DNA of 32,268 bases from Acidimicrobiaceae bacterium (GTDB lineage: Bacteria > Actinomycetota > Acidimicrobiia > Acidimicrobiales > Aldehydirespiratoraceae): contig VYCM01000103.1 in the NCBI GenBank assembly GCA_009843915.1, positions 1 to 32,268 on the forward strand, written 5' to 3'. Shown in pieces: positions 11,920 to 31,440 of this stretch; within the stretch, counting starts at the first letter, position 1; each line of letters begins with the position of its first letter. A program made the translations under genes and the position numbers. The notes under the pieces are model-generated. The model had not been told where the DNA came from. It saw nothing but the letters and a program-made list of their open reading frames with translations, and made no database searches.

Positions 11920-12708
11920 CTAGTCAGCAGGGAGGGGACTTAGGAGCTTGGTGTCGATCAGGCCTTGGAAGTGGGTCGTGACGCTGGCGGCCAGGGCGCG
12001 GTCGCGGGTCAGGAGCCCGAGTTCTATGTTGCGGTCCAGAGCGGCATCAGTGAGGTTGGCGGAGGTGATGAAGACCGCTTCGTCGTCCACAACGACTGCT
12101 TTGGCGTGGAGTACGCCGGACGGCCCACCGGGTTCGAGGGATCGCGGGTCGTAGAAGACGGCCGGTCTTGAGGTGCCGGGCCAATCCGTTCCCCAGAAGC
12201 GATCCGCAAAGCGGCGCACGAGTTGGTCTGGCGCGGTGGTGTCGCCTCTGGCTCGCTGGATGTTCAACATGAGGACAGCCCGCACGACGGGGATTTCTTT
12301 CATGCGCTGGGCGAGGTCCGCGAAGGCTCGGGGGCCGTCGAAATACACGTAGGTACTCATCCACACCGATTGTGTGGCGGTGCGCACGAGTTCCTCGTAC
12401 ACGCGACGGGTGTCGCGGGCGTGGAGACCGGGCACCTCCGGGCCTGACCACACCAGGTCGAGATCAGCGGCTCCGCCAGTGGCCTGATCCAAGGAGCGCA
12501 CCCACGCCGAGACGGCCCGGCCCGTGATTCCGATAGACGCTAGTTCAGTCAAGTCGGCGACGAGGTCTTCGGTCCCGGTCGGCATTCCCAGCACGGATCG
12601 AAGGGCAAGCGGTGAGGGGGTGTCGGGCAGCTTCCCGGTCTCGTAGGCGGCCGCGAGACGCTTGCGCAGGTGCGCAGGGAGAGCAGCGACTCGGCTGCCT
12701 GGGGACAT
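11920..12708 (-). CDS. drmC: DISARM protein DrmC, phospholipase D-like
   Basis: A 262-residue single-HKD phospholipase D superfamily protein, the size usual for DrmC. The motif is at about residues 200-221: GVLHAKAVVVD, then FITSANLTD with D-N-x-E-L-G-L following. The N-terminal part is helical (ALPAHLRKRLAAAYETG). In other DISARM systems DrmC is a core gene, though it was reported to be dispensable for protection against some phages. I start at the ATG at 12708; the codon before it is a GTG that could also serve. It begins 23 bases after the drmB stop and is the last gene of the drmA-drmB-drmC run. Confidence 0.9.
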   Translation of the reverse strand: MSPGSRVAALPAHLRKRLAAAYETGKLPDTPSPLALRSVLGMPTGTEDLVADLTELASIGITGRAVSAWVRSLDQATGGAADLDLVWSGPEVPGLHARDTRRVYEELVRTATQSVWMSTYVYFDGPRAFADLAQRMKEIPVVRAVLMLNIQRARGDTTAPDQLVRRFADRFWGTDWPGTSRPAVFYDPRSLEPGGPSGVLHAKAVVVDDEAVFITSANLTDAALDRNIELGLLTRDRALAASVTTHFQGLIDTKLLSPLPAD

Positions 12709-12731
12709 CACAGCATCACTCGGTCACGCGC

Positions 12732-14540
12732 TCACGGCGCAGGAAAGAAGGCGGCGTCGGGGACTCCGAGCACCGGCACGACCAGCGCCCTGTCGAGGTA
12801 GTCGTTTCGCATCTCGCAGGAGGTCTCTGCGATCAACGCGCAGCCATGGCAGGCAGCGCCGTGCAAGAAGCGCTGCTCCATGCCGTCGCCAGCGGCGTGT
12901 TGGGCGCATATCGGGTCGTTGGAGCACAGCAGCGCCATCTCCAGGGCGTTGACGAGGTGGTCCTCGATGTGGCGGGCCTGCTGCACCAGCCCGCCCAGCG
13001 TGCCTTCGGCGTCGGGAGTGCCCGTATAGAGCAGCAAGCCGTGATGGCCGTCCTCGACGTAAACCCGCTCGCGGATGGAGCTCGCCGGGTAGCCACAGCG
13101 CATCGACATCGACTGGATCAGCAGGTGTGCCACAGTGTGCAGCAGGATGTAGGGGCCGCCTGGGAACGGGCGCTGTCTGCGGCGCTCCTGCTGCCAGGCG
13201 TCGTGCTGCTGGTGGAGCCGGTCGAGGCGTTGCACCACCTGGCGTCGCTTCAACCATGCCCCGACAGCGGCTTGGCTGAGATGCACGAACACGCCCTCGC
13301 CCCGGTTCTCCACCGCGGGAAACCAGCGTGGCTCGACCGCGATGTCCGCCCGTTCGACGTCGGTGTCATACTCGCCGTGGATGTTGCGCATGGCAGCCTC
13401 GAAGCGTGTGAACCCGACGAGCGCCTGAACCTCGCGCAGTCGGTGGAGCTGCACCACCGACTCGACGCCGCTGCTCAGCAGCGACCCGTCGCGTCTCCAC
13501 GCAATGTCGGGAAGGCGGCGGGCGTGGAAGTCGGGATCCAAGGGCACATCGTCGCCGTAGCCCTCGGGCGCGGCGAGCAGAGCTTCGAGTTCTGCGACCT
13601 TCACGGGACGGTCGCCAGTTCCGCCGCGTTTCAGCTGCCCGATCGCGGCTAGGACTTCGTCGTCCGAGAACGGGCTCAGCCTCTCGGTGACCTTCGGCTT
13701 CTTCTTGATGAACTGGAGGTCACCGGGGTCGTCCACGATCTGTAGGTCGTCCCACAGTTCGCGCACCGTGTGCTCGACGGCCGCGCCTCGATCGGGCAGC
13801 GACAATGCGCTTACGACCTGCGCGAAGTAGGCATTGGAGGCGGTGCGGATGAGCAGCCGGCTCGGCTGGTCGCACGCCTCGTCAGTGTCGAGACCGAGCC
13901 ATGGTCGCTTGCCCCGGCAGTTGCCGAGCGGCCTGTGCTCAAACTCCGTCGCTTCGTACAGGCGCCTCGACTTGCCGCAATCGCACCGCACCACGAGTTC
14001 GGCCAGGTCGCCTGTAGTGCCGCGCTCGTCGAGCCAGAGTTGGCGTCGGCATCGTTCGCCGCCACGATGCGCGAACCCGGACCAGTCGAGGTCGTCCACA
14101 TGGCCCTTCGGGCAGGCTCTCACGAACCGGGTGGGCACCACTGCCTTGCTGTCGAAGCGGCGGCGCCCATCGTCCAGCGCCCTACGGTGCACGAGGCGCC
14201 GCGAGCGCTTGCGTTCGGGATCGCCGTCGTCGTCTTGGACTACGAACCACTCCGGGAAGCTCCACGCTCCGATTCCCAGGCCCGGTGACCACGGGTCTTG
14301 GGGCTCGGGCGGCGGCGCGTACATCCGGGGGGACGGCACGCCGGTGATGGCCCCGAGCAGACCGGCGAGCCGTTCGTCGACGATCTCGTCCAAGTCGCCG
14401 GTGTTGGGCCATGTTTCCAGCCCGGCGACTATGGCGGTGTGCTCGGGCAGGTCTAGCAGCGCGCCGGGTCCGTAGGTGGTGATCACCTGGCTCTGGCGCA
14501 GCTGCCCGTGGCCTCGGCTCACCGACCGCCACCCCCGCAT
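12732..14540 (-). CDS. drmB: DISARM protein DrmB (DUF1998)
   Basis: A 602-residue protein from the ATG at 14540. The open frame extends further upstream into drmA, but family similarity begins at QLRQSQVITTYGPGALLDLP; a GTG at 14522 is an alternative start. There are two cysteine-rich regions. The first, about residues 137-213 (ACPKGHVDDLDW, ERCRRQLW, RCDCGKSRRL), looks zinc-binding. The second is the DUF1998 C-terminus: LLLYTGTPDAEGTLGGLV at about 500, CSNDPIC at about 540 and CHGC at about 563. In DISARM, DrmA and DrmB form a DNA-loading and translocating complex that senses DNA with 5' single-stranded ends. It lies between drmA and drmC, as expected. Confidence 0.93.
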   Translation of the reverse strand: MRGWRSVSRGHGQLRQSQVITTYGPGALLDLPEHTAIVAGLETWPNTGDLDEIVDERLAGLLGAITGVPSPRMYAPPPEPQDPWSPGLGIGAWSFPEWFVVQDDDGDPERKRSRRLVHRRALDDGRRRFDSKAVVPTRFVRACPKGHVDDLDWSGFAHRGGERCRRQLWLDERGTTGDLAELVVRCDCGKSRRLYEATEFEHRPLGNCRGKRPWLGLDTDEACDQPSRLLIRTASNAYFAQVVSALSLPDRGAAVEHTVRELWDDLQIVDDPGDLQFIKKKPKVTERLSPFSDDEVLAAIGQLKRGGTGDRPVKVAELEALLAAPEGYGDDVPLDPDFHARRLPDIAWRRDGSLLSSGVESVVQLHRLREVQALVGFTRFEAAMRNIHGEYDTDVERADIAVEPRWFPAVENRGEGVFVHLSQAAVGAWLKRRQVVQRLDRLHQQHDAWQQERRRQRPFPGGPYILLHTVAHLLIQSMSMRCGYPASSIRERVYVEDGHHGLLLYTGTPDAEGTLGGLVQQARHIEDHLVNALEMALLCSNDPICAQHAAGDGMEQRFLHGAACHGCALIAETSCEMRNDYLDRALVVPVLGVPDAAFFPAP

Positions 14541-14643
14541 CCGGGGCTGTGGGTGCCGCGTGGGTCGGCACGACCGTGGAACTGGACTCCGCCCCCACCT
14601 CCAATGCTTCGCGACGAGCTTGTCGGCCGGAACTGGTAGCCCG

Positions 14644-17600
14644 TCATCCGTCGCTCTTTCGAGACATAGATAGGGGCTTGATGTAGAGGTCCACCTCGGG
14701 TTCCACGTCGCGCAGCGAGCGGTTGGCTCGGAACTTGCGCTGGTGGGGAGACTCGAAGTCCTCTTCGAGCATCTCGCGCAGCAGGGGCTGGGGCGTGCGG
14801 AGCTCGTACCGCTGGTACTGGACCTCGACGTTGGCGTCCTGGTAGTCAGAGACCACCGTGAGCCACGAGTCGAGCAGGTCGACGACGCGGGACCTGACGC
14901 TGTGCAGCCGCTCGGCCCGCTCGGCCTCGTCGGCGAAAGGCTGCCGGTCGACACGATCCGCGAAAAACTCTAGAAGAGCGCGCTCAACGTCGACGCGCGC
15001 CCCGGCGAGCGCCTCGACGCCCCGGGACGGTGTCAGAGTCGCATCGGAGTGTCGGGCCAACCCCACCATTGCCCCGGCGAGGCCGCGGTCGAGGGCGCGC
15101 GCCGAGAACGGGGTCACGCTCGACACCTCCACCGACCGGTAGAAGGTCTCGTGATAGTGGCGGAAGCGCTCGTAGTGCGACCGATCCCGCGGCTTGTGCA
15201 CGTTGAGCAGGGTGACCACGAGCCCCGGCTTGTCGTCGACTCGGCCCACCCGGCTGGTGGCCTGGATGTACTCGGCGTGGGTCTTGGGCTGACCGAGTAC
15301 GACCATGAGCCCCAGCCGCGGAATGTCGAGCCCGACCGAGATCATGTTGGTGGCGATCGCGCTGTCCACCCGTCCCGTCTCGTGGGCGGCGTGGCTCAGC
15401 CGCGCCCGGGCCTGTGCCACCTTGTCGGTGGAAACGCGAGAGGTAAGCTCCACGACCTCCGACATGGTTCTGCGGTCCTGGAACAGACCCCTGGCCTCAC
15501 CGATGCGCTTGCGCTGGCCGTAGGTCTTGACGGTGTTCTGGACCTCCTCCTCGAGGATGCGGCGGGCCCCGCCGAGCTCGCGCAGGCTGTTGAAGTAGCC
15601 GAGCACGGTCATGTACGGATCGGTGGGGTTGCGCTTGTTGCGGTGCCCTCCGGCGTCTCGGTAGGCCCGCTCGGCTGCGCCCATCAGCGCGAGCCACACC
15701 CGTCGCATGAGCACCTTGGGGTTGCGTCCCGGCGACGCAATACCCAGATACATGCGCCCCGGCACCCGGTCGACGGGCACTACCTGAGCGAAGAACGAGT
15801 CCCGGCGGTCGGGACCCGGCGGCGGGAACACCTCGGTAAGCGAACGCGCGAACAGCGCCTGTATCTGGTCCTGGGCCTGGCGGACGGTGGCAGTGGACGC
15901 CACGATCTTGGGACGCATCGACTGAGCGGTGGCCTCGGAGCCGTCCGCCGGATGCTCCGTCGTCCGCGTGCACAGCGCCTCGATGGCGGTCTCGTACAGG
16001 CCGACCATCGTTCCGAGTGGCCCCGAAATGAGATGCAGTTCGTCTTGGATCACTAGCTCAGGGCCAGACAGCGGCTTCTCTAACGGGCGGCCCTGCCTCG
16101 GCTCCGAAGCACCGTAGAAGCCGAAATCGTCGAAGCGGCTGGCTCCTCCGAGCAGAGCGCCGGTCTGGCCGGTGAACGGCAGCGACGCGAACTTGTCGAC
16201 CGTGGCGATGAGGAATGCCGGCAGGCGTCGGTAGATGGGCTCGTCCACTGCCAGGATGGGCAGCGGCCGGTCGCCGCTGAAATCGCACTCGAAGTTGATG
16301 CAGACGACCCGCAGTTCACTTGGCTGGTCGTCGTCGGGTAGGAGTGTGAACGATGCTGGCTCGAACGGGGTGCCGCAACGAGGGCAGCTCTCCAGCGGAA
16401 TGGGCATGGGCTTGCCGGGATCGCTCTTGAACTGGCGGGTCTTGGAGCGGGCCGAGTCGGAGCGCCTGTCGCCCTTGTGACCCATCACGTTGGGGTGGCC
16501 GCCTTGCCGACCCATAGGCCGATCTCGATGGGCCACCTGCCGTAGCGTTCCGGATCGGCCTCTCGTTCGAGTTCCAGCGCGCACACGAGGCTGGCGGCCC
16601 GTCCGAGCTGGTCGAGGGTGAGCAGCCGCAGCGTGTAGCGCATGATGACCACCACGCCCGCTCCCTGGAGGCCGTCCTGTCCGGGGCGCCGCAGCCGGCG
16701 CAGCATGATCGTGAACGCGGCCAGCCCCAGGTACGCCTCCGTTTTTCCGCCGCCAGTCGGGAAGAACAGCAGGTCGACGATCTCCCGCTCCGGACTGCGC
16801 CCGTCTGCCAACCCGCCCACGTTCAACAAGATGAAGGCGAGTTGGAAGGCTCGCCATTCGGGCTCGTCGTCGTCCACACGCCAGCGCAGCGCCCGGGCCA
16901 CGGCCCGGTTGGCCACCCGGAACGCGTCCAGAGCGTCGTGGTCGTGGACCAGCACGCCGATGCCGCGTTCGATTCGGTCTGCAGCCATTCCAGCCCGTCG
17001 CAGCAGTTCCTCACCGACATCACGCCGGTCTCCGTCGAGCGCACCGAGGCCGCTGCGCTGCAGGCCGATCCATGTGCGGTAGTGGTCTACCAGCGGCCGA
17101 AGCGCGTCGGACGCGGCTTGCCCGTCGGTGAGCGCGCCGAGCTTTTCCATTGACAGTTCCGCGTCGGGCACCAGCACGGTCTCGGTCTTGGCAACCGTCG
17201 CGCTGGGGATCCACGCGGTGCGCAGCGTCCGGCACTCGCCGTCCACAACCTGCCAGTCCGCCGAGGTGCCGTGGCCGACGGCGTACTCGGGAACGTCCGC
17301 GTAGTGGAGGTCGGCTACCTGGTCGTCCCATTCGGTGGCTAGCGCGCCCCGCGGGTCTGGCCGCGCCACGAACGGCACTCCGCCAGCGATCTCTAGTTCG
17401 GCCTGGAAGATGTAAGCCTGCTCGGCGGCGCCCGCGCTTTCGGGATCGTCGGGGTCTCCCGCCGTGGGAGGCCGATTGTTGACCAGGAACACCGACACCG
17501 ACCGCGTGCCCTTGCTGAGGGTCGCGATCCGCCCTGTGTCAACAGGTCTGACGGCCACATGCAGACGGAGCCCGCCCGACTGAGGAACCGGATGATCGGC

Positions 17601-18086
17601 AGCGGCCTGAGAGAGCGAGACCGCCACCGTGCGCTCCAGCGGCTCGCGCTGCCACACGCTGACCTTGTTGCCGTCCGGGCCCTCGTACTCGGTCTTGTGG
17701 TAGTCGCCCCATCGCACTGCTACGGTCAGCTCCTCGGCCGAGTCGGGCACGAGGAAGCTCAACCCGACCGACGACGGGAAGAACCCTTTCTTGGCAGCTG
17801 TGCGCTCCTCAGAAGACTCTTCGGTCAGCCCGGCCAGAGCGGGGGTCTCGTCCAGCGGATCGTCCTCATCGGCATCGGAGCGCTGGTCGAACGGCGTGCC
17901 CGACGGAACGAGGAATCCAGTGAGGTACCAGTTCGACGGCCGAACCCACCCCGGCAACTGCTCCTCAGCCAGTTCATGCCCTGCGCCCGGCCCGACCAAG
18001 TCCAGCCGCAACGCCGCCGCCAGGTACTCGCGCACCTCCAGCGAGTTGGCGTCGGCGAGTGCGGACGGCCTGGTGTCAGCGTTCAT
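14644..18086 (-). CDS. drmA: DISARM helicase DrmA, interrupted by a single-base frameshift
   Basis: Two overlapping frames together encode one DrmA of about 1147 residues. The first frame (18086 to 16485) covers the N-terminus, Walker A FFPTGGGKTEAYLGL (about 442-450) and the following MRYTLRLLTLDQL motif, and stops at GLWVGKAATPT. The second frame continues the family sequence with MGHKGDRRSDSARSKTRQFK, a zinc-type CPRCGTPFEP, motif II VIQDELHLISGP (about 680), VASTATVRQAQDQI, ATNMISVGLDIPRLGL, and motif VI IQATSRVGR (about 945). Adding one base at the C4 run (16492-16495) restores a single frame of 1148 codons. DrmA is an SF2 helicase that acts with DrmB. It starts 67 bases after the PD-(D/E)xK gene. 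As written, the sequence makes only a truncated protein unless slippage occurs. Confidence 0.92.
16485..16495 (-). other. Frameshift site in drmA (C4 run and premature TGA)
   Basis: On the minus strand the bases read GCGGCCACCCCAACGTGATGGG. In the incoming frame ACG is followed by TGA (16487-16485). One more C would give ACC-CCC-AAC-GTG-ATG and the expected DrmA continuation. A missing base in a short homopolymer is a frequent assembly error, a real inactivating mutation, or, less often, a slippage site. Confidence 0.85.
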
Positions 18087-18153
18087 CTGGCAAAGCCATC
18101 ACACCGCGCTTCGACCTGTAAGCGGAATGTGTCTAAGAGCGGGTGTCGAAGAC

Positions 18154-19218
18154 TCAGAAGTCATCGAAGAGCCTGGGTGCTTCGTCAACTGCGGCTTCGA
18201 TGTTTGTTCTGTTGTCGGCTGGTTTGGCCTGTTCTAGGAGTTTGATGACTTCTGCTTGTTCATCGTGGCTTGAGAGCGACAGCGAGAATGTGTCTCTGCT
18301 CTGCCTCCGGAAGTAACCGAGACTCTGCAGGGTCGTCGTCAGCACACCCGTCGCCGCCGCAGCGAACTGTTGTCGATCAGCATCCAGCCACCGGTCGAAT
18401 ACGCCAAAGGTTGCCCGGCTCAACAGCATTGCCCCAGTGATGTTGAGGGTCGTTGGCACGATGGCTTGACCTACGACGGCCATTGCCTCAACGACTACGC
18501 GGGCCGTCAACTCCCGGTAACCATCCGCTTGAAGTTCCGGATCCTGGGTTCCTTCTATGCCGGGAATCCACGGAATCACGTAGAGAGGCCGGATGTCGTC
18601 TTCACCATGACGATGCAAGACAGTCGCAGGGGTTTGGAGTGCCCGTTGGGCGGGCGCAGGCAGGTCGGAGAGGCTCGAGGTCGAGAGCCTCGCACCCTCG
18701 TCATCTATGGAAATACCGATCGTGGCGGTCGGTGCTGCGGACACGCCCTGGGAGCCCAGGGACTCGTTCAAGGCTTGAAGAGTCTCGGCTAGGCGGGCGG
18801 CGTCGCTCTCGACGGTCCCATACACGACATGGCCCGGTCGGGGCTGTGTCTCGGCGTACGACGCCGACAGGTCGTGAGAGGCCACGATCAGCTTCCCGGC
18901 CTGCCGCACGTTCGACGAGTCTTGGGAGAACCCGTGGGACTTAAGCTCAACGACCAGAGTCACCGGGTCGTCCGGATGGTCAATGCACAAGTCCGGACGG
19001 CATGGCGAGCGGTCGGTGGAGCCCGCAATGTCGCGAAGGGCTGAGACGGTCGGCTCGTCGGCCGGCACGAGCAGTCGTCTGCCGAGCGACTCCAACTCGT
19101 ATCCGTCCGTGCGCAGGACCGGCCGCACGGCGGTGATGTCGGGGAGGTCCTCCAGCGCCCACAGCAGGATGTTGAGTTGGAATACGGGATCGGAGACGAG
19201 AACGGCGTCGGAGGTCAT
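18154..19218 (-). CDS. Putative PD-(D/E)xK nuclease of the DISARM locus
   Basis: A 354-residue protein of no family known to me. Residues 75-93 read PDLCIDHPDDPVTLVVELK, which fits the PD-x(10-30)-(D/E)xK nuclease pattern exactly: P75-D76, then E91 and K93 at the end of a hydrophobic strand. A following helix (SSNVRQAGKLIVASHDL) with an early Gln is also common in this fold. The N-terminal 70 residues and the C-terminal half (about 190-354) are of unknown role; no second catalytic motif is seen. It overlaps the upstream gene by 4 bases (ATGA), so the two are translationally coupled, and it ends 67 bases before drmA. By position it is a DISARM accessory nuclease candidate; function is inferred from one motif. 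Confidence 0.65.
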   Translation of the reverse strand: MTSDAVLVSDPVFQLNILLWALEDLPDITAVRPVLRTDGYELESLGRRLLVPADEPTVSALRDIAGSTDRSPCRPDLCIDHPDDPVTLVVELKSHGFSQDSSNVRQAGKLIVASHDLSASYAETQPRPGHVVYGTVESDAARLAETLQALNESLGSQGVSAAPTATIGISIDDEGARLSTSSLSDLPAPAQRALQTPATVLHRHGEDDIRPLYVIPWIPGIEGTQDPELQADGYRELTARVVVEAMAVVGQAIVPTTLNITGAMLLSRATFGVFDRWLDADRQQFAAAATGVLTTTLQSLGYFRRQSRDTFSLSLSSHDEQAEVIKLLEQAKPADNRTNIEAAVDEAPRLFDDF

Positions 19219-20438
19219 GCGGCGATGCTGGCGGCATCGGCCACCGCCTGTTCGTAGGGCTCGCTACCGAGCCAGGCTCTCGCGGTCGGAGCTAGCTCTC
19301 GTTGCACGTTGGTGACGAGCCGGTGGACTGTGTTCCCGCAGGTGCCGTGGGGAAGTACAGCGAGGAGATGCTGGCTGGTGGCCTCCAGCAGGAACGGTTG
19401 CCACAGGTGCCGGTCCACGGCAACGACATGTGCCTTGGTGGGCCCCCGGCGCGTGACGAAGCCTCCGATACGGAAGCGACTCGTCCGTCGTTCGAGCGCA
19501 AGCTCAACGAAACGGTTGAACAACGGCTCGCTTAGGGGCTCGCCGAAGTCGATGACCAGGGGGCTGCCGTGAATCTTGTACCCGTCTTGGCCGGCGTCGG
19601 TGGTGTCGACCCAGAGGCGGGCTTCGGCATGCTCGGTGACGCTGCGGTATAGCGCGAGTACGCGCCGCACCGTCGCCCGGTGGTCGGCGAACGAGTCGCT
19701 TCGGTTCGTGGCGCGGCCGTCGTAGTTGAGGCGGTGGCCACCGCGGCCAGCCGCGGGCATCTGCAGGTGCACCAGTGAGCGCAGCGGGTCGTAGGAGTCG
19801 ATGAGCCGCTGCAGTTTCTCCTCCAGCACGGACAGGCTCTCGGTGAGCGTCACCACCGAGCGTCGGCGCTCTGTAAGGGCGTGCGGTGTCTCGTAGTCGG
19901 CATCGTCGGCGCTGTCGTCGTCGGTGCCCACATCGAGACCGTCGATCGGCTCATAGCGAGCCTCGTGCTCGAATCCAAGCCGCGCGTAGCGCTGCGACGG
20001 CGTGGTCGCTTGCACCTGCCGCCACAACTCGAACAGGATCGGCGACGACAGCCAGAGCCGGTCAAGCCACGGGCTGGTGTCCACCGTCTGGCGCACCCAT
20101 CGGTCACTGTGTTCGACAGCCATCTTCGTGTAGAAGACAGGATGCCGGTCGTCGAGTTCCTCGACTAGGCCGACCACTTGGCCGCCGTGGCCAGCGTCCT
20201 CGACACGGAACAACGTGTCGTCGAGACGGTGAAGATGCACACGCCCGGCGAACCTGCTGGCCAGGTCAGGCATCTGTTGGTTACTGCCTGCGGTCTCCAG
20301 CATGTAGGTCTTGACCAGTTTGCGACCCGCGTCGGGGTGCTCGATGTCCGCCGCGGCGGGCACGGGGTGGCCCTCCAGGTAGTCGACGAACTCGCTGCGC
20401 CTCTCCAGCCGCGGCAGGTACCCGACATTGTCGGTCAT
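19215..20438 (-). CDS. Unknown DISARM-associated protein (407 aa)
   Basis: I do not recognise this protein. I start at the ATG at 20438 (MTDNVGYLPRLERRSEFVDY); the open frame runs 30 codons further upstream, but that part is low-complexity. The middle carries an acidic linker (DVGTDDDSADDADYETP, about 190) and a predicted coiled region (VVTLTESLSVLEEKLQRLID). The C-terminal half has alternating strands, including GSPLVIDFGEPL and SRFRIGGFVTRRGPTKAHVV. No membrane segment or signal peptide is seen. Its stop overlaps the next gene's start as ATGA, pointing to a fixed-ratio complex with the PD-(D/E)xK protein. It is first in the minus-strand run leading to drmA. Confidence 0.7.
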   Translation of the reverse strand: MTDNVGYLPRLERRSEFVDYLEGHPVPAAADIEHPDAGRKLVKTYMLETAGSNQQMPDLASRFAGRVHLHRLDDTLFRVEDAGHGGQVVGLVEELDDRHPVFYTKMAVEHSDRWVRQTVDTSPWLDRLWLSSPILFELWRQVQATTPSQRYARLGFEHEARYEPIDGLDVGTDDDSADDADYETPHALTERRRSVVTLTESLSVLEEKLQRLIDSYDPLRSLVHLQMPAAGRGGHRLNYDGRATNRSDSFADHRATVRRVLALYRSVTEHAEARLWVDTTDAGQDGYKIHGSPLVIDFGEPLSEPLFNRFVELALERRTSRFRIGGFVTRRGPTKAHVVAVDRHLWQPFLLEATSQHLLAVLPHGTCGNTVHRLVTNVQRELAPTARAWLGSEPYEQAVADAASIAA

Positions 20439-20749
20439 GGCCGACAGCGTAGGCCGTGCCTCGCCCCCGGCCGCTGCTGAGACGTTGACGGAGTTCGTAG
20501 CGCAGATCCCGGCCTGCGAACAACTCACCGAGCGATCGCACCACCGTGCCGACTGCTACTCTGCAGCTATTGCTCCGCTTTCTCGGCCAAGCCGGGAATG
20601 GCGGGGACTTATCGTCTTGGAGGCAGAAGGCACCGTGGCTCCTGTGTCGGTCTTCATCGACTACGCCTACCACTGTGCCTGCGAGGCCCTAGCGATCCGC
20701 AGACCGATCCGCCCACTTTCGGGCACATCCGAAACTTGAGGAGGCGACG
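20439..20749. other. Divergent intergenic region between the 407-aa gene and the DUF4209-like gene
   Basis: About 310 bases separate two divergent starts. A 103-codon frame on the plus strand ends just before the next gene's ribosome-binding site, but it has no start signal or recognisable family. The region probably holds both promoters; no clear boxes were identified. GAGGAGG at 20738-20744 serves the plus-strand gene. Confidence 0.5.
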
Positions 20750-22594: not shown

Positions 22595-22736
22595 TCCCGC
22601 CGCCACGATGGACGACGGCTAACGTAGCCAATGATGACAGTGAGCATGGGCCTCGGCCTGATACGGGCAAGCCATCAGCGCGCTGAGTCGGCGCTAGCCA
22701 CTCCGGGGCGCGGGAAGCATCCCCAACGGACACCTC

Positions 22737-23885
22737 TTGCAAGTCAAGGTGACCGCCCGTCACATCGCAGACCAAGCGAGTCCATCGTTGCTCCGAATTG
22801 AGACAATCGGTCAACCGGGTCAGGGATCGGTGGTCGATCTCCTCGCCAGCGCCACCCGGCAGCAGGAGTTTCGACGCCTCCGGGCGGCGGTGGCGTACGC
22901 GACCCCAAGCGGCATCCAGTTGCTCAAGAACGCTGGTGCCTGCCAAGCTGCGCACCTCACTTCGGAGTGGCTGGTCGCTGTGGACTGGTGCCGATCAGAG
23001 CCGGCTGCCCTCGACGCGCTTGAGTCGTCACGCCGATCAACCGTTCGGATCCCATCCGGCGCTCATGTCATAAACTCACCCAGATGTACTCCACGGACCC
23101 CATTTCACCCGAAAGGATTCCTCTTCTTAGGCCCGAAACGTCGGCTCCTAGTCTCGGGTTCAGCAAATCTCTCTAGGAACGGCCTTTCACGGGGCCATGA
23201 ACTGGATACCGTCATCGAAGTCCGAAATGCTAAGACATCCGCTGAGAAGAAGGCATGGAAGGCCCTCGGAAGGACGAACAAGTGGTTCCGGGAACTCTGG
23301 CGAGACTCAACGGCGTATCCGCTAATCGCGAATGACTACCGGACGGCACATGCTGGCTCCATCAAGGAACCTGTTCCAACATCGGATGATGTGACCGAGT
23401 CGACCGGACGTCGTCCTCGTACTGGATTCAGTGGAGACGATCTGCTGAAGCTGCGTTCCGCACAGCATCTCTGGATCGAAGCCGGCAATGTGTCACAGAA
23501 TCGCGGGCGCGGTGTCCCAGGTAATCAGATCATGATGCGCGCAATGACTCGAGTGTTCTTCGGCGTTGAGCCAAGAGATGTTTCGCGCGATACTCACTTG
23601 ATAACGTTAGCTATGAGTTATCAGGGACATATCTCGTGGGACAGAACTCTGAGGTACTCGAACAACTCGATGGACGTGCTGACAGTACCTGTCCCAGGGT
23701 CACCTACAGGTCCGCCCTCATATGATAATCTAACGTTAGTGCTCCGCAAGGCGTCACATAATGGCGCATTGATCTACGAACTGCGAATTGCAACACCCGC
23801 CGAGACTGTATCTCTAGGGCGATATAGCGATCAAGTAGGCGGGCGCTTCGTGATGTCGAGCGGTCGTCAATTTGGTGTCTACTAG
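22737..23885 (+). CDS. Phospholipase D-type nuclease, possible restriction endonuclease
   Basis: An open frame of 382 codons from a TTG at 22737; an in-frame TAG at 22695 limits the start, and GTG 22749 or TTG 22788 are alternatives without a good ribosome site. The PLD active site is FHPKGFLFLG (H124, K126) with GSANLSRNGL at 141-150 and E155 in HELDTVIEV. One HKD motif is present, so it would act as a dimer. The C-terminal part (about 240-382: IEAGNVSQNRGRGVPGNQI, FFGVEP, SYDNLTLVLRK) has the layout of a nucleic-acid-binding recognition domain, reminiscent of PLD restriction enzymes such as the NgoFVII/BfiI type, with low certainty. GC drops from about 66% to about 50% near residue 120. It ends 59 bases from the end of drmMI, tail to tail. 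Confidence 0.65.
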   Translation: MQVKVTARHIADQASPSLLRIETIGQPGQGSVVDLLASATRQQEFRRLRAAVAYATPSGIQLLKNAGACQAAHLTSEWLVAVDWCRSEPAALDALESSRRSTVRIPSGAHVINSPRCTPRTPFHPKGFLFLGPKRRLLVSGSANLSRNGLSRGHELDTVIEVRNAKTSAEKKAWKALGRTNKWFRELWRDSTAYPLIANDYRTAHAGSIKEPVPTSDDVTESTGRRPRTGFSGDDLLKLRSAQHLWIEAGNVSQNRGRGVPGNQIMMRAMTRVFFGVEPRDVSRDTHLITLAMSYQGHISWDRTLRYSNNSMDVLTVPVPGSPTGPPSYDNLTLVLRKASHNGALIYELRIATPAETVSLGRYSDQVGGRFVMSSGRQFGVY

Positions 23886-23944
23886 ACTCGCATTCCAAGA
23901 GCTGGCCCAAAGAACAGCCTTGGATGCCTTGTGCCGAATTGGCT

Positions 23945-26900
23945 CTACTCAGCAGTCGTCCCGGGCATAGCGTCCCATAGGGTCGCGGGTGGTGGAGTCG
24001 CGTTGGCTAAGGCGTGGCGTGAGCGACCCCGGGAGCGTCTGTCCTTGGTCTCCCGTGACTTTAAGAGGCCAGCTCGGGCCTCCTCTGCCGCTCGCTCTGC
24101 ATTGAGTTCCAATAGTCGAGCTAGTACTTGATCGCGAACGTCATCAGGCCAACGATAGCGATATGGCTTCCTCTTGGTACCCCAGGTCGCCTCATCAATC
24201 TCGTAGTCGAGAAGGAATTCGCAGTCAGTCGGAATGTCGGTCCAGCCGTAGGCGTCGAGTACCACTCGGTCCATGGCTGCATGCAGTCTGCGCAACTCCG
24301 CTATATCAGTACTGTCCTCGTAAGGATTGTGAAAGCGGTTGTAGGTCTTCGTCATACCCTCGTCATTGCGGGCCATCAACGCAGCACGGAACTCATAGTA
24401 CTCCTTGCCTACGATGTCTAGGCTACGGTGAGTCTCCCAGCATTCCGGAAACGGAAACGTCTCAAAACAATCAGAAGGCGTGTACCGAAGATCATCCTTC
24501 ATGGATGATCCAAAGAACTGCGCCCACGACTCATGAGGACGAGATTGTAATGTGCAGAAGGCCGAATATGTATCAAGCGGATAGACAATGAGCGAGTCAG
24601 CATAGATCATGTTGGCAGGCAAAAAGGCATACTGTACTCGCTGACTGACGCGAGAATTCGCTAGCACTCGATCCAAACCTGAGATCGCTGAATATAGCTC
24701 TACTCGCGCATTCCAGTACTTCCACCACTCATGTACCATACGAGGATACTTGTCTGCATCCTTGAGTATTCGCTCCGGCCTGACTCGTTTCTCTGCTATC
24801 GCAAACAGTTGAGGCCAGTGCTTTCTACAATACTCTTGATCATGTTCGCCAAAATTAATGATGTATCTGTGATGACTATGTGTGGGACTTCCATTGAGTT
24901 CTTCGCCGCCGATATACGGACGGATCGCTTCCTGACTATCTGGCTCTTCCTGTATCACCTTGTACATGTCGTCATGAGAAGCTGTGACTCCACGCTTGTC
25001 ACTGTCGTCGAAGGTGAAGCCCATGCCAAGTACGATGCTTCCCTGGAAGCTCTTCGCGGAGCTTGCAGCCAGTCGAACTGGATCCTCGTGTCTACCACGA
25101 TAGAAAAGAAAGGCTGTGATTCTATCAACGATATTGTTATCCAAGTACTTTAGGGAGCGAACGTGTCCCTTGCCTATATGAATTACACTGATGATTACAG
25201 CGGCAGTTCCCGGCCACTTGACTCTTCTCCGTGCATGATAAATTTCGCCACCACGCTGACATATCCAACGCAAGCCGCTATTGCGGGTATCGCCTTGAGC
25301 AATCGTGTTTGTAGCAATCAGCCCCAGGGTACCGCTATCTCGAATCAAGTCGAACGCTCGTCGGAAGAAGTGCGCGACGAGATCAGCTCCGCCGCTCGAC
25401 TGCTCATGGGCCGCGAGCAGCCACTTCGAGTAAACCTCACCTTGGACTGAGGAGAGATTGCGTCCACCAAGGAAGGGCGGGTTGCCGACCATGGAATCGA
25501 AGCCGGGGTTCTCGCGGTCAAAGACTTCGGGGAACTCGACTTGCCAGTGGAAGGGGGCCAGTGGTGGATCGGCATTGCGCAGATCGTCGAGCCATGAGCG
25601 GTACGTGTCTGCTTCACCGTCGATGACCCTGGTGGCAAACTCCTTGCGGCGGGCTTCGCGGTCCTTGGGTTTGGGCTCTTGGAAGAACGCGGCCAAGACG
25701 AGGTCGCCGAGCAGGCAGACGGCTGCAGTCTCTGACTGGACCTGATCCCAGAGCTCCCGCAGTTCTCCGTCGGACACAGAGTCATCGGCCTCGCGGATGA
25801 GCTTGCGCAACTCGGCCGACCTGTCCAAGTGGGCTCGTCCTCTCAGGGCCTCGAAGCCTTCCGCAAAGTGTGGGGCGCCGCCCTTCCAGTGAAAGGCCTG
25901 GATCTGTGGGATGGACAGGCCTACCAGCGAGTCGCCGTGGCGCAGGGCGTGGTCGAGGAATGTGAGCGGGTGCTCCTTGGCGAGAGTGGTAAGCCACAGC
26001 GACAGCTTGGCCAGATCCACCGCCTTGGGGTTGCGGTCAACCCCGTACAGGCAGCGCTGAGCGATCTGGCGGCGAGCGAAGATCACCTCGTCCTCGTCGG
26101 GCGGGATCTCAGGCGCGACGCTGTGGGCCCGCCAAGACTCGATGAGGGCGTCTGCGAGTTGGCGGCAGGCCTCCACGAGGAACGCGCCCGAGCCCATGGC
26201 CGGGTCGCACACCTTGAGATCGAGGATCTGCTCGGGGCGCAACGGACCGTCCGCTTCCTGCCGCAGACGGTCGAAGATGGGCTCCAGCGCGATCCGGACG
26301 ATTGGCTCGGTCAGCTCCCGCGGCGTGTAGTGCGAGCCTGAGCGGCGGCGCTCCTCGCTCGGCTGCAGCACCATCGCGCCCGTGGGCACGAGGTCGGGTG
26401 TGGCGTTCTTGTCGATGACGGAGTCCAAGGTGGCGTGCAGCGCGTCGATCGCGCCGCCTGCATGGGGATCGATCTGCTGGACGGCCTTGTTGACGACAGC
26501 CGTGAGCTTGCGGTCAGTGCGGTCCCTGAGCCACTTTGCCCGTTTGGTCGGGGCCTCGGCCAGCAGTTCCTCCACGTTGATCGTGGCCGGGGCGCCGTGC
26601 TTCTTGACGGCCTTGATGGCGATGCTCTGACCCGCAGCGGTCTCGAGCCGGAAGCCCATCATGGTCTCGTAGACCGAGCCGATGTGCTCCACATCTAGAG
26701 CCCGATATGAGATCCGCTCGGCATCGAGCACAATCAGCTTCTCCAGTACTCGGTGAACGGTGCCGTCGGACACAAGGGGCGGATCGATGCGTTCCTCCAC
26801 TTGGCGCACATCTCCTCGCAGCCCGCCTCGGCCCTCCAGGAACGGGTAGCGGTCGGGGTGGAACAGGTCACCGTGCCGGGCCGACAGACTCATGTTCGGG

Positions 26901-28114
26901 CCTCGGGCGCCGTCGTGGACCATGCGCCACAGCGCGAGCAGCTGCGCGTAGGCGCCGTAGCGCTGGTCCATGGTGTCGGGATGAACCGCGGCGTCCTCGC
27001 GCAGTCTCTCGTACAGGCCCGACACCGAGTAGGCGCCGAGGAACACCTCGCTCTGGGGGAGCATGTCTCGCTCCTCGGCGTAGAGCAGGAACACGAGGCG
27101 CAGCACCACGGTGAGCAGGCCCCGGTAGATCTCGTCTGGCTCGTCGACGAACTCCCGGCCGAGAAGCTCGCCCCGCGAGGCGTCGTGAGCGGCCTGGAAG
27201 CCGCGCAACAGCTCGTAGAGCGCGTGCAACACCTGCTCAGCGAGGCGCTCGCTGACCTCGTTCTGGAACTTGCGGCTGTCGCTCAGCAATGCGGCGAGGC
27301 GCTTGTCGGCGGGCATCGCTAGGAGGCGGGTCTGGCTAAGTAGTTCGCGCATGGCCGCGCAGATCGGCCGGCCCGCGGTCTGGAGCATGTCCGCGACCCG
27401 GAAGTCGAGCCAGCCCGAGTTCTCGCCCGGAGGAGCGGACACGAGCCGCAGGGCGGTTCCGTTGAAGATGAGCCCGGCCGGGGCGCGGGTGTGGCGCAGC
27501 AGGCGTTCCATGCGGCCGTGGGCTGACAGCTCCAAGCCACCGGCGGTCGTGCTGTCGAAGCTCTCGCCGGTGTCGATGACGCTCACGAGCAGTTGCCAAG
27601 GCGACGGCTCGCCCTTAGTTCCGTTCGCCGTGCCCGCACCGGATTGAGGGGTCATGCCAGCGGCGCCGTTTTCGGCGGAGCCGTCCGCTTCGCCCGCAGA
27701 GCCGGGTGCGTTGACCGCTGCGGATGCCCGCTGCGGCAGCGGGTCCCTCAGCGGCTCGGCACGGACCGCGAAGTCAGGCCGGAAGTTGCCTACCCCCTCC
27801 GGCAGTTGCACCTCCAGTTGGTCCGGGATCGGAGCGTCCGATGTGCCTGCGTAGCCCTTCGGCGAGAAGCTCCAGCCCAGAACCGACTCGGCGAAGGCAC
27901 GGAAATCGCCCAGACGCGGCGCGGACGCCGCTTGTCCGTGATCGAGACCGTCGTCTTCGGCGCACTTGCGCAGCAGCCGCTGGCCTTCGGCGTCTCGGCG
28001 GGTCAGGATCACGCCGGCTCGGACCAGCGCAGGCGCCGACACCACCAATCCCGTGGGGCGAACGAAGCCGATCCACTCCAAGTGCGCAGCTACCTGCGGA
28101 TCGAGCCTCGCCAT
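23945..28114 (-). CDS. drmMI: DISARM adenine methyltransferase DrmMI
   Basis: A 1389-residue protein from the ATG at 28114, which overlaps the drmD stop as TGATG with GGAG 8 bases upstream; a TTG at 28132 is a less likely start. It is an N6-adenine DNA methyltransferase: SAM-binding motif I VCDPAMGSGAFLVEACRQL (about residue 630-650) and catalytic NPPF (about 880). A long helical N-terminus precedes them. The C-terminal part (about 930-1330) should hold target recognition and is encoded by DNA of about 45% GC, far below the rest of the gene. In DISARM the methyltransferase marks host sites as self. BREX PglX is similar, but the drmA, drmB, drmC and drmD neighbours decide for DISARM. Confidence 0.93.
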   Translation of the reverse strand: MARLDPQVAAHLEWIGFVRPTGLVVSAPALVRAGVILTRRDAEGQRLLRKCAEDDGLDHGQAASAPRLGDFRAFAESVLGWSFSPKGYAGTSDAPIPDQLEVQLPEGVGNFRPDFAVRAEPLRDPLPQRASAAVNAPGSAGEADGSAENGAAGMTPQSGAGTANGTKGEPSPWQLLVSVIDTGESFDSTTAGGLELSAHGRMERLLRHTRAPAGLIFNGTALRLVSAPPGENSGWLDFRVADMLQTAGRPICAAMRELLSQTRLLAMPADKRLAALLSDSRKFQNEVSERLAEQVLHALYELLRGFQAAHDASRGELLGREFVDEPDEIYRGLLTVVLRLVFLLYAEERDMLPQSEVFLGAYSVSGLYERLREDAAVHPDTMDQRYGAYAQLLALWRMVHDGARGPNMSLSARHGDLFHPDRYPFLEGRGGLRGDVRQVEERIDPPLVSDGTVHRVLEKLIVLDAERISYRALDVEHIGSVYETMMGFRLETAAGQSIAIKAVKKHGAPATINVEELLAEAPTKRAKWLRDRTDRKLTAVVNKAVQQIDPHAGGAIDALHATLDSVIDKNATPDLVPTGAMVLQPSEERRRSGSHYTPRELTEPIVRIALEPIFDRLRQEADGPLRPEQILDLKVCDPAMGSGAFLVEACRQLADALIESWRAHSVAPEIPPDEDEVIFARRQIAQRCLYGVDRNPKAVDLAKLSLWLTTLAKEHPLTFLDHALRHGDSLVGLSIPQIQAFHWKGGAPHFAEGFEALRGRAHLDRSAELRKLIREADDSVSDGELRELWDQVQSETAAVCLLGDLVLAAFFQEPKPKDREARRKEFATRVIDGEADTYRSWLDDLRNADPPLAPFHWQVEFPEVFDRENPGFDSMVGNPPFLGGRNLSSVQGEVYSKWLLAAHEQSSGGADLVAHFFRRAFDLIRDSGTLGLIATNTIAQGDTRNSGLRWICQRGGEIYHARRRVKWPGTAAVIISVIHIGKGHVRSLKYLDNNIVDRITAFLFYRGRHEDPVRLAASSAKSFQGSIVLGMGFTFDDSDKRGVTASHDDMYKVIQEEPDSQEAIRPYIGGEELNGSPTHSHHRYIINFGEHDQEYCRKHWPQLFAIAEKRVRPERILKDADKYPRMVHEWWKYWNARVELYSAISGLDRVLANSRVSQRVQYAFLPANMIYADSLIVYPLDTYSAFCTLQSRPHESWAQFFGSSMKDDLRYTPSDCFETFPFPECWETHRSLDIVGKEYYEFRAALMARNDEGMTKTYNRFHNPYEDSTDIAELRRLHAAMDRVVLDAYGWTDIPTDCEFLLDYEIDEATWGTKRKPYRYRWPDDVRDQVLARLLELNAERAAEEARAGLLKSRETKDRRSRGRSRHALANATPPPATLWDAMPGTTAE

Positions 28115-31100
28115 CAGTTCGACTCCGGCCAAAGATAGACGAGCCCGACCGGCTCCACCCGCTGCACCTTCACCTCGTAGAACTCCCGCACCCGGGCCGG
28201 CTCTCGTTCCAGGTCCTGCTTGAACTGTTGGAGGCGCGTGCGCCAGTGCCGCATGTTGGCGTCGAGCTGCCTGGTGTCCTCGCCCAGTTGTCGGGCATCG
28301 GGGCCCTGGAAGTCCAGCAGCAGCTGCGTGTACTCGCGCTCGTGGCGGGCGAGTTCAGCCTCGACCTGGTCACGGTGGCGCTCCAGCGTGTCTCGCAACG
28401 CCCGCTCCTCGCGCTCGCCGCGCTGGGCCAGCATCTGCTTCGCTGCCGCAGCGTGCTCGGCAGCTCGCGGCTCGAGTTGCGGCCGAAGATCCTCGATGTC
28501 TTGGGCAGCGGCCGCCATGAGGCGGCGCTGGACGACCTCGTTCGGCATCCGGGCGCTGCCATTCAGCGACTCCTCCAGCAGGTCCATCGTGAGGGTCTCG
28601 GCGTCACGCGCGTATGCCCTCAAGGGCTCGCTGCGGGCGGACGGATCGCGCCAACGGGCCGCCACCGGCACGATCTCCTCGTGCAGGCGCTCGGCACCGC
28701 GGCCGTACAGCGACAGGCGTCCCAACAAGATCACACGGGGGATCGAGTCCCGCGACTGGGCCAGGCACGCCCTCGACAGATCGTGGTATACGAACCCCTG
28801 AGCCCGGAAGCGGGACAGCAGCCGCTGGGCCACCCGCTGCTCCAGGTGCAGGTGCACGGTCTCCTCGTCGAGCCGCCCGGCGTCCTCGAACACCACCGGG
28901 CGGATGGGTGCGCCGCGTCGCCACTCGGGCAGCTTCTGGTCGAGCTTGCGCGGTACCCGCAGCGAGTCCAGCGTCGAAGTCCAGCTCGGGTCGGTGGCGG
29001 AGCGCTGCTCCAACGGCGGGAACGTCCACACCGGGCGGCCCTCGTCGTCGGTCCCCGCCACCAGCGTCGGCGCGCCCAGCAGCTCCAGCGAGCAATCGAT
29101 GGCGTCGCGGAACGGCACAGGCGAGAAACCCGCCCACTTGCGGGATCGGTCGAGAAGGTTCTGGCACGCCTCGATCTGTGATTCCAGATTCTGGGCCCGC
29201 TCGCGAGCCTCCTCGAGTTCCTCCTCGGTGGCCCGCCGCCTGTCGTCATCCAGCGACTCCGCCTCTATCTCACTCCTCAGGGCATCGGCGTCACGGTGGC
29301 GGATTCCCTCCGACAGCATCCGGCGCTCCACGGAGTCGTCGATCACCTGCGACAGGCTTCCCAGCTCCCGCTTGATGGTCTCCGTCTTGGTGACCAGGAC
29401 CTCCAGCACCCGGTCCTCAGTCCGCTGGGGCAGAACGAAGTAGTGGCAGTTGACCTGGGCCGCGGGCTGCAGCTTGCGGTCGATGCGGCCGTTGCGCTGC
29501 TCGATGCGGCCCGGGTTCCACGGCAGGTCGAAGTGGAACAGGTCCGAGCAGTGGGCCTGGAGGTTCAGTCCCTCACGGGCCGCGTCGGTGGCGATGAGGA
29601 TGCGCAGCGGCTCCTGGGCCGGGTCGGCATTGAAGCGGCGCTGCACCTCGCGCCGACGGGCCCTGCTGGTGAGGCCGTCGATGATGTCGATGCGCTCCTC
29701 GGCCTGGTCGGTGTCCTCGATCGCCTGCTCCAGGATCGACTTGAGGTAGCGCTTGGTGCCCTCGCGGTTCTCGGTGAAGATCAGCACCCGGCGCTCGGTC
29801 CACGTCGGCGGCGACCCGGTTGCGGGCTGGCCGAAGGCGGGCAGCCCCGGGCATTGGTGCCGTCTGATCCAGTCGATGAGACGGAGCGTCTTGGCGTCGG
29901 GGAGATGGCGGGCATCCTCTGCGATCTTCTCCATCTGGTCGAGGAGGCGCTGCTCGTGAGCCCACGCGGCCGCTGCGGGGTCAGCAGCCGGCTGGGAGGC
30001 GGCGTCGATCTGTGCGATCTGCGCCTCCTCGTCGGCTTCCGCCTCGTCGGAGGTCCACCCGGCGCGCTCATCGTCGGCGTCGGCCGGCTTGAGGAAGGCG
30101 GTCGCCTGCTCGTCGTCGGGGTACAGCGCCGGATGCGGGTCGCCCCCGAGCTCGTGGGCTTTGTCCCAATGGCGCTGGACCGTCTCGCGGTGCTTCTGGA
30201 GACTGCGGGCGAACGCCTCGATCGACGACAGCAGCCGCTGCTGCAGGCCGACCGCCATGAGTCCGGCCGCGAAGCGGACCCTGGCGGACTCCGACGAGTA
30301 GCGCTGGTCTCGGGCGGTTCGATACTCGTCGAGCAGCCTCGACAGGGCCAGCTCCGGGGCGTCCTCGGGCAGCCCGTCGATCTTGACCCGCACGACGTTG
30401 CGCTCCGGGAAACCGCCTTGGATCGAGCGGAGGTCCTCCTTGATGCGGCGTACCATCACCGGCTCGAGGTCGGTCCTGGCCCGCACCTTCACGCCTCGGG
30501 TGAACCGGTACGGGTCGAGCAGCTCCAGCAGCGTCGAGAAGCTGTTGGAGTGGCCGTTGTGGGGCGTGGCCGACAGGAACAGGCGGTGCTCGAACCGGTG
30601 GGCCAGATCGCGCACCGCCCTCGTGATCTTGGTCTCGATGCCGTATCGGCCCCCTGACGACGGAGCGGCATGGTGCGCCTCGTCGAGGATCAGCAGGCTT
30701 CCGGGCCGGGCCTCGCCGAGCCACTCGCGCATCGGGTCGGTGTAGGCGGGGTCGATCAGCAGGTTGTGCGACACCAGGAACCGACTGTGGGTGCGCCACG
30801 GGTTGACCCCGAAGCCTCGCTCGCGGCGCATCCGCGACACGTATGCGCGGTCGAGGACTTCGAACACGAGCCCGAAGCGCTCCTCCATCTCGCCCCGCCA
30901 CTGCTCCAGCATCGACGGAGGCGCGGCCACCACGATCGACTTGGCCTTGCGGCGAAGCAGCAACTCGCGGGCGATCAGACCGGCCTCGATGGTCTTGCCG
31001 AGACCCGTGTCGTCGGCGATGAGCAGGTTGGCCCGCGGCAGCGCCAGCGCCTTGCGTAGCGGCTCCATCTGGTAGGCGTCGATCGTGATGCCGGCCCTGA

Positions 31101-31440
31101 ACGGTGCCTGGAACAGCCGCGAGTCGGTGGCCGTGGTGCAGTTCCAGCGCAGCGTGTTCAAGAATGCCGCGAACAGCCGCGGCGAGTCGAGGCCCTTGGA
31201 CGCCAAGTCGGCCCAGCCCTCGTCGGTGAGGATCCACCGGTCCGGCTCGTACTCCCAGAACACCTCCAACGCCTGGCCCTGGTTGTCGTCGTCCACGCAC
31301 GCCAGCCCGACTAGAGCGGACTCGCCCGGCACCTGCGACTCGGCCACCTCCTCCACGATCCACCGCCGAGACCGCACCTGCACCAACTCGCCCACCCCTG
31401 GCAGCCGCTCCGGCAGCACCGCAGGCGCAACGGCACTCAC
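28114..31440 (-). CDS. drmD: DISARM SNF2-type helicase DrmD
   Basis: A 1108-residue SNF2/RapA-like ATPase, the marker of class 1 DISARM. It starts at a GTG at 31440 with GAGGAG 8 bases upstream. Motifs: Walker A DDTGLGKT (143-150), I-V-V-A-A-P-P, DEAH (253-256), SATPHNGHS (290-298), then after a long insert the C-terminal RecA-like lobe with ATDAAREGLNLQ and RIEQRNGRIDR (about 640-650). Coiled-coil-prone stretches lie at about 735-765 (RRRATEEELEEARERAQNLE) and about 990-1050. It probably translocates on DNA. The stop overlaps the drmMI start by one base, so the pair is translationally coupled. Confidence 0.93.
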   Translation of the reverse strand: MSAVAPAVLPERLPGVGELVQVRSRRWIVEEVAESQVPGESALVGLACVDDDNQGQALEVFWEYEPDRWILTDEGWADLASKGLDSPRLFAAFLNTLRWNCTTATDSRLFQAPFRAGITIDAYQMEPLRKALALPRANLLIADDTGLGKTIEAGLIARELLLRRKAKSIVVAAPPSMLEQWRGEMEERFGLVFEVLDRAYVSRMRRERGFGVNPWRTHSRFLVSHNLLIDPAYTDPMREWLGEARPGSLLILDEAHHAAPSSGGRYGIETKITRAVRDLAHRFEHRLFLSATPHNGHSNSFSTLLELLDPYRFTRGVKVRARTDLEPVMVRRIKEDLRSIQGGFPERNVVRVKIDGLPEDAPELALSRLLDEYRTARDQRYSSESARVRFAAGLMAVGLQQRLLSSIEAFARSLQKHRETVQRHWDKAHELGGDPHPALYPDDEQATAFLKPADADDERAGWTSDEAEADEEAQIAQIDAASQPAADPAAAAWAHEQRLLDQMEKIAEDARHLPDAKTLRLIDWIRRHQCPGLPAFGQPATGSPPTWTERRVLIFTENREGTKRYLKSILEQAIEDTDQAEERIDIIDGLTSRARRREVQRRFNADPAQEPLRILIATDAAREGLNLQAHCSDLFHFDLPWNPGRIEQRNGRIDRKLQPAAQVNCHYFVLPQRTEDRVLEVLVTKTETIKRELGSLSQVIDDSVERRMLSEGIRHRDADALRSEIEAESLDDDRRRATEEELEEARERAQNLESQIEACQNLLDRSRKWAGFSPVPFRDAIDCSLELLGAPTLVAGTDDEGRPVWTFPPLEQRSATDPSWTSTLDSLRVPRKLDQKLPEWRRGAPIRPVVFEDAGRLDEETVHLHLEQRVAQRLLSRFRAQGFVYHDLSRACLAQSRDSIPRVILLGRLSLYGRGAERLHEEIVPVAARWRDPSARSEPLRAYARDAETLTMDLLEESLNGSARMPNEVVQRRLMAAAAQDIEDLRPQLEPRAAEHAAAAKQMLAQRGEREERALRDTLERHRDQVEAELARHEREYTQLLLDFQGPDARQLGEDTRQLDANMRHWRTRLQQFKQDLEREPARVREFYEVKVQRVEPVGLVYLWPESN

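Follow-up and report, generated by a model that had tools for sequence, protein, structure and literature searches.

A class 1 DISARM locus of an Acidimicrobiaceae bacterium with a probable cargo slot between drmMI and drmA

The stretch of DNA analysed here (the window) is one entire contig of 32,268 nucleotides (nt) (C124; VYCM01000103.1) from the Acidimicrobiaceae bacterium assembly GCA_009843915.1, a genome of 3.24 Mb in 151 contigs that is 88% complete. It carries a class 1 defence island system associated with restriction-modification (DISARM), and we consider it probable that the junction between drmMI and drmA in this locus serves as a cargo slot. Read along the minus strand, the locus consists of drmD, drmMI, the junction, drmA, drmB and drmC (Table 1). 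A preliminary description made from the letters alone had already named all five core genes, each of which is matched by NCBIfam or PADLOC models. It had also placed four genes in the junction, namely an orphan and a PD-(D/E)xK protein co-directional with drmA, and a HEPN-like protein and a phospholipase D (PLD) nuclease opposed to it, which is what we find. As all four have homologues elsewhere, these open reading frames (ORFs) are real genes, and chance ORFs were ruled out as an explanation. The earlier proposal of an expanded or composite system is supported in part; a single four-gene insertion was ruled out, since relatives hold the parts separately: the four genes are three units with different distributions, the PLD gene, the orphan with its PD-(D/E)xK neighbour, and the HEPN gene.

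Among the loci compared, the drmMI-drmA junction is the favoured insertion point, and its content is swapped between close relatives. Gaps of more than 400 nt, a limit of our own choosing, were present at this junction in 14 of 23 loci (5/8 from relatives and 9/15 from plasmids), as against 2/25 at drmD-drmMI (Fisher's test, 1.5e-4) and 0/26 at drmA-drmB (1.2e-6). The sample of 29 loci, from which the window was excluded, comprised ten loci of relatives found through drmA, two found through the orphan (L045 and L053), 16 plasmid loci found through drmMI, and L089, which was found through the PLD and was also matched in the plasmid drmMI search; the denominators differ because some loci do not have every core gene in view. 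Plasmid drmMI matches H11, H16, H18, H20, H21 and H29, with coverage of at least 80%, lay outside this sample. Without L089 the comparison becomes 13/22 for drmMI-drmA against 2/24 for drmD-drmMI (p 3.7e-4); L043, whose junction is empty at 177 nt, has no gap value in the count, and its inclusion would change 13/22 to 13/23.

What occupies the junction is diverse, and the site therefore accepts many kinds of gene, nucleases not alone. On a Trichormus variabilis plasmid it holds a PtuA/AriA-like ATPase together with an AriB-like DUF4435 protein (L105:12705-14688), and another slot holds an ATP-binding protein and an O-methyltransferase. The genes directly before drmA in Methylocystis, Sinorhizobium and Acidibrevibacterium encode an XRE regulator and a protein of 137-171 amino acids (aa), the Sinorhizobium regulator (L098) matching the RmrA and capP models. 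Such pairs were seen in three Alphaproteobacteria (L089:9595-11223, L098:13600-15222 and L099:14112-15747), and their position upstream of drmA is a hint that the drmAB module may be controlled separately.

The exchange of content is clearest within the genus of the window. Compared with locus L040, identity is 90-98% over drmD and the first part of drmMI and about 94% over the orphan, whereas blastn finds nothing matching from about 20,460 to 24,060; the L040 slot holds an M78-peptidase protein and a PDC-M50A protein. Compared with L042, in which drmD is partly deleted, the unmatched block spans about 20,620-25,170, and the slot holds an AAA_16 ATPase. Because the same place in L042 (genome G008) still matches the beginning of the HEPN gene over 82 columns, that gene was probably once in the L042 slot and was then replaced. 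In the slot of L039 (G044), the PLD is accompanied only by a remnant in which the orphan and PD-(D/E)xK genes are fused. A repeat search over 20,300-24,300 found no direct repeats, and a promoter and terminator scan gave signals at chance level.

The 3' part of drmMI, with its target-recognition domain, has an identity to L040 of 0.66-0.79 (500-nt bins, 23,900-25,400), whereas the remainder of drmMI and drmD reach at least 0.90 in most bins, and the guanine plus cytosine content around the domain is low (0.515 in 24,001-25,000). This low-GC recognition domain, diverged from two same-genus relatives, adjoins the exchanged block, and it looks as though specificity and cargo had been swapped jointly. 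Separately, the drmD at L042:12436-17835 (G008) is missing part of its length and is continuous with drmMI in one frame of 1,799 aa.

Of the four genes, the PLD is the one most likely to be a true partner of DISARM. Full-length matches (about 600 bits) were confined, among 100 relatives including the window's own genome, to that genome (G000) and G044, both in the slot; 15 further relatives gave short matches of 36 bits or less, and in the class sample the only match among 296 genomes was the window itself. Among 72,556 plasmids there were seven PLD records, the best of which comes from Methylocystis sp. MJC1. There the PLD follows drmD and drmMI and is separated from drmA and drmB by three genes, small or regulatory, with no drmC among the genes listed for the stretch examined. 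Counting the window, the close full-length homologues lie in DISARM loci in 3/3 cases (G000, G044 and Methylocystis MJC1), in two phyla, and the recurrence in unrelated hosts that the preliminary description had proposed to look for is borne out for this gene, by an alphaproteobacterium (Methylocystis) and by a member of the window's family (G044). Four other plasmid homologues examined (26-30% identity) stand in no recognisable DISARM locus; those of Methylosinus, Roseomonas and M. iwaonis lie beside a DNA methyltransferase, that of Halobacterium does not, and the M. iwaonis PLD and methylase are arranged tail to tail, like the PLD and drmMI of the window. Matches H3 and H5 of the PLD search fell outside the neighbourhoods examined.

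At the protein level, the residues H124, K126, N144 and E155 of the HxK...GSxN...E motif are invariant in 6/6 PLD family members; PLDc_2 matches 5/6, the window member falling below its cut-off. In its HxK-N-E motif and its association with DNA methyltransferases the family resembles PLD-type restriction endonucleases (NgoFVII), and RE_NgoFVII matches 2/6 members; it differs in that the window PLD has no such match and has a C-terminal part without an assigned domain. BfiI is also a PLD-type restriction endonuclease. The ratio of nonsynonymous to synonymous substitution rates (dN/dS) of the PLD is 0.125 against L039, at a dS of 1.7 that is near saturation. No relatives of the PLD or the orphan were found in viral contigs, and a sequence search of the PDB gave nothing meaningful for the PLD, the PD-(D/E)xK protein or the orphan.

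The second unit, the orphan with its PD-(D/E)xK neighbour, has a wider distribution. We counted 19 distinct orphan loci, records of the same contig being merged by length and position, two G014 contigs being taken as one locus, and L044 and L055 being the same loci as L040 and L042; as far as searched, all are in Acidimicrobiia. Nine of the 19 are in DISARM. Six are at the drmMI-drmA side (the window, L044, L055, L041/L056, L045, whose contig begins before drmMI comes into view, and the L039 remnant) and three directly before drmD (L051, L053 and L054, the PD-(D/E)xK gene of L054 overlapping the drmD start by 4 nt). In a further six the neighbours are other defence genes: GajB, an OLD-like ATPase and IetA at L047, L048 and L050 (proteins scanned for L047, similarity used for the others), a type I restriction-modification (R-M) system at L072, and PDC-S01 at L049 and L073. 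The remaining four (L046, L052, L074 and L120) were not assigned to a context. The orphan is accordingly neither confined nor nearly confined to DISARM, as a dedicated subunit would be. Recurrence of this pair between drmMI and drmA is upheld, in Acidimicrobiia only as far as searched, and is joined by the position before drmD and by the six loci in other defence surroundings.

The PD-(D/E)xK gene is full-length beside 7/19 orphans (window, L045, L046, L047, L054, L072 and L120), partial beside 7/19 (L039, L044, L051, L053, L055, L073 and, at a contig end, L074) and undetected beside 4/19 (L041, L048, L049 and L050); in L052 it is out of view. A similar decay, in which the beginning of the orphan runs into a late segment of the PD-(D/E)xK gene, was noticed at L039:13613-14311 and L073:1375-1947. 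In the class sample the orphan was found in 7/296 genomes (two weakly, G104 and G365) and the PD-(D/E)xK gene in 6/296 (one weakly, G094), the weak matches being dropped before loci were counted, and in the phylum sample the orphan was found in 2/396 genomes, both already known. A scan of contigs with two short peptide patterns, which can miss distant relatives, gave 13 orphan-bearing records, titled Acidimicrobiia or Acidimicrobiaceae metagenome-assembled genomes. Such genomes presumably derive from marine sponges. Among the 100 relatives, 11 have a class 1 drmA, 12 have the orphan and nine have both; the orphan is thus present in 9/11 genomes with a class 1 drmA and in 3/89 without (Fisher's test, 6e-9; within the family, 9e-7), a statistic inflated by shared ancestry. 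By our own judgement, a class 1 drmA was credited to G036 (a partial match of 820 bits) and G000 (a split match), and DrmA-like matches at or below about 330 bits were excluded.

The orphan has dN/dS values of 0.08 and 0.11 and the PD-(D/E)xK gene one of 0.17 (window against L045), for comparison with 0.13 for drmD and 0.17 for drmC. By these ratios, the orphan, the PD-(D/E)xK protein and the PLD have remained functional proteins across the divergence sampled. The motif P75-D76, E91-x-K93 is invariant in 5/5 aligned PD-(D/E)xK sequences, and a predicted structure with a predicted local distance difference test (pLDDT) score of 71.6 places it at strands 77-80 and 87-92. A Foldseek search with this model gave no match below 1e-3 (best E 0.09), and the AlphaFold2 model of the orphan (mean pLDDT 46.7) offered no fold usable for a search.

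The third unit is the HEPN gene, for which the expected recurrence at drmMI-drmA failed: its homologues are mostly away from DISARM, though a remnant lies at the same place in G008. Homologues occur in 7/296 class genomes and 5/100 relatives (the window's genome in both), and a second DUF4209/HEPN gene, 34% identical, is present in the window's own genome (G000:C134:4287-5966; L003). No DISARM genes lie within the fetched stretch of seven HEPN loci outside the window contig (G010 and G041 fell outside this set), no PADLOC match was obtained among those of their neighbours that were scanned, and the plasmid search gave no relative of the protein. DUF4209 is a HEPN family according to the available text of PMC3710099, and the protein agrees with the C6orf70/DUF4209 HEPN family set out there in that DUF4209 matches 5/6 members and R579 and H584 of the R-x4-H motif are invariant in 6/6, the window included; both marks of the family, domain and motif, are therefore found at family level. 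It differs in having a DUF7380 region, which is matched in 6/6 members and is the only match of the window member.

How might these units work together? The roles that we infer for the PLD, for the orphan and its neighbour and for the HEPN protein are as follows. DrmMI would mark host DNA, DrmD and DrmAB would load onto unmarked phage DNA, and the slot PLD would supply the DNA-cutting step beside a dispensable DrmC. The PLD fits this cutting role best because it is the right type of enzyme, in the right place, and tracks with methylases. In the available text of Bravo et al. 2022 (PMC9142583), DrmAB is activated by unmethylated DNA with a 5' overhang, DrmC is dispensable and does not co-purify, and the recruitment of another PLD nuclease is suggested. 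The orphan would be a defence protein, often with a PD-(D/E)xK nuclease as its neighbour, that sits with DISARM and also beside Gabija or type I R-M, and the HEPN protein may be a self-contained RNase that acts as a growth-stopping backup once the first line fails. A more ambitious version, which we think unlikely, is that the junction is an evolved effector slot between the methyltransferase and DrmAB modules, that the PLD is the dedicated methylation-coupled nuclease that had seemed to be missing from DISARM, swapped together with the DrmMI target-recognition domain, and that the orphan and the PD-(D/E)xK gene often found next to it form a defence module not described before, serving several helicase- or methylase-based systems; we lowered our estimate of this version because the PD-(D/E)xK gene is full-length in only 7/19 orphan loci.

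Several observations weigh against a cargo slot tied to DISARM. The relatives in the junction counts are draft genomes with shared ancestry, and when one of L039, L040 and L042 is kept the comparison weakens to 11/20 against 2/22 (p 2e-3). Some slot genes are not defence genes (an insertion sequence with an MqsA-type antitoxin and SecB, XisH/XisI, regulators), and several slot proteins have no PADLOC match. The PLD occupies the slot in 1/15 plasmid loci with both genes visible, and the PLD and HEPN genes, being oriented against the DISARM operon, lie outside its transcript. The PD-(D/E)xK gene is full-length in 3/9 DISARM-linked orphan loci (window, L045 and L054), partial in five and undetected in one, and is therefore dispensable in DISARM; the orphan is thus the better kept part of the pair, which weakens a nuclease role for the neighbour in DISARM. 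In G018, moreover, the orphan is unlinked to the DISARM locus.

The explanation that draws most on these points is a plain defence island, in which independent defence genes landed in the DISARM locus without a functional link; it is compatible with a slot and denies the link only, and we regard it as a serious contender that falls slightly short of an even chance. The HEPN protein stands away from DISARM in other genomes and has a second copy in the window's genome, the orphan is also found beside Gabija-like genes and type I R-M, and the slot contents are diverse, all as such an island would have it. It accounts less well for the strong preference for drmMI-drmA over two other junctions, for the closest full-length PLDs standing at the same junction in two phyla (3/3 with the window), and for the recurrence of the orphan at two DISARM positions, in one case (L054) together with a PD-(D/E)xK gene that overlaps the start of drmD by 4 nt.

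A second explanation starts from drmA. The class 1 gene set as defined by PADLOC in the available text of PMC9252829 (drmA, drmB, drmC, drmD and drmMI) is complete in the window, with drmA frame-broken, a defect absent from the preliminary description. The match to the DrmA model NF038325 is split between two frames, one piece covering profile positions 564-1165 and the other 1-626, both under the model's cut-off of 950, and against the intact same-genus drmA of L040 there is a single 1-nt gap near 16,494. One assembly cannot tell whether the break is a genuine mutation or arose in assembly; because of the break, the core of this DISARM copy may be dead, and the cargo may still work. The locus could then be decaying, with a dead core and the slot a graveyard of foreign genes, a reading to which the one-base break, the partial PD-(D/E)xK genes of L039, L040, L042, L043, L053 and L073 and the gutted drmD of L042 would lend themselves. 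We doubt it, given that the rest of the locus is open, that the orphan, PD-(D/E)xK and PLD genes are under purifying selection, and that, in a draft assembly, a gap of one base may be artefactual.

Finally, a dedicated expanded subtype, with all four genes as subunits of one machine, would suit the tight packing and the co-directional orphan, PD-(D/E)xK and drmA genes, but it is very improbable, being largely refuted by the gene distribution: there are relatives that retain the core but lack at least one of the four, HEPN homologues mostly stand elsewhere, and the orphan is outside DISARM in at least 6/19 loci.

Table 1. Features of the DISARM locus and its junction (positions in the window)
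Feature	Positions	Strand	Evidence
drmD, SNF2-like helicase of class 1 DISARM	28114..31440	-	NF038317 1026 bits (cut-off 610); SNF2 and helicase domains
drmMI, MmeI/Eco57I-type N6-adenine methyltransferase	23945..28132	-	PADLOC DrmMI 1273 bits; Eco57I, MmeI_Mtase, MmeI_TRD
drmMI target-recognition domain	24446..25021	-	MmeI_TRD, aa 1038-1229
PLD-superfamily nuclease candidate	22737..23885	+	HxK...GSxN...E motif; tail to tail with drmMI, 59 nt between
DUF7380-DUF4209 (HEPN) protein, RNase candidate	20750..22594	+	HEPN-type R-x4-H motif; DUF7380
Orphan, 407 aa from its ATG	19215..20438	-	Homologues in Acidimicrobiia; dN/dS
PD-(D/E)xK nuclease candidate	18154..19218	-	Motif P75-D76...E91-x-K93; 4-nt overlap with orphan
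drmA, YprA-type helicase, frame broken near 16,494	14644..18086	-	NF038325, two pieces
drmB, DUF1998/MZB protein	12732..14954	-	NF038324 536 bits from aa 149 (cut-off 240); MZB domain
drmC, PLD nuclease of DISARM	11920..12711	-	NF038319 160 bits (cut-off 133)
Replaced-cargo block, no similarity to L040 DISARM locus	20460..24060	.	blastn against L040

The locus resembles known class 1 DISARM in having the five core genes in the order of annotated plasmid loci, with DrmB, DrmC and DrmD above their cut-offs, and differs from it in the four extra genes between drmMI and drmA and in the frame-broken drmA. The true start of drmB is probably near the drmA stop, at about 14,650. No DrmE was among the matches listed for nine locus proteins (PADLOC) and eight locus proteins (NCBIfam), the scans covering these proteins and, for PADLOC, two ORFs beside drmC. 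Just beyond drmC, at 10080-11410, lie a 265-aa protein and a 171-aa neighbour of unknown kind; the former has a weak pPIWI-associated nuclease match (pP_pnuc_1 9e-6, just below cut-off; Aga_Nuclease 2.5e-4).

A literature search of titles and the starts of abstracts, which did not cover the first DISARM paper (Ofir et al.), gave no description of cargo between drmMI and drmA. The nearest parallel is bacteriophage exclusion (BREX), another methyltransferase system, in which auxiliary or backup nuclease effectors of the PD-(D/E)xK, HKD/PLD and HEPN types lie within or beside the core loci; in the available text of PMC12839542 the effector set also includes OLD/TOPRIM proteins, as in PARIS and Gabija. 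The difference is that this paper covers BREX and BREX-related systems, the word 'disarm' being absent from its available text. By analogy, a precedent for the same auxiliary effector set would make a slot in DISARM less surprising and supports that reading.

Two points give the locus wider interest. A PLD family that occupies a constant position beside drmMI in two phyla represents a concrete candidate for the destruction of phage DNA by DISARM. Furthermore, a favoured cargo junction offers an easy starting point in the search for new defence genes.

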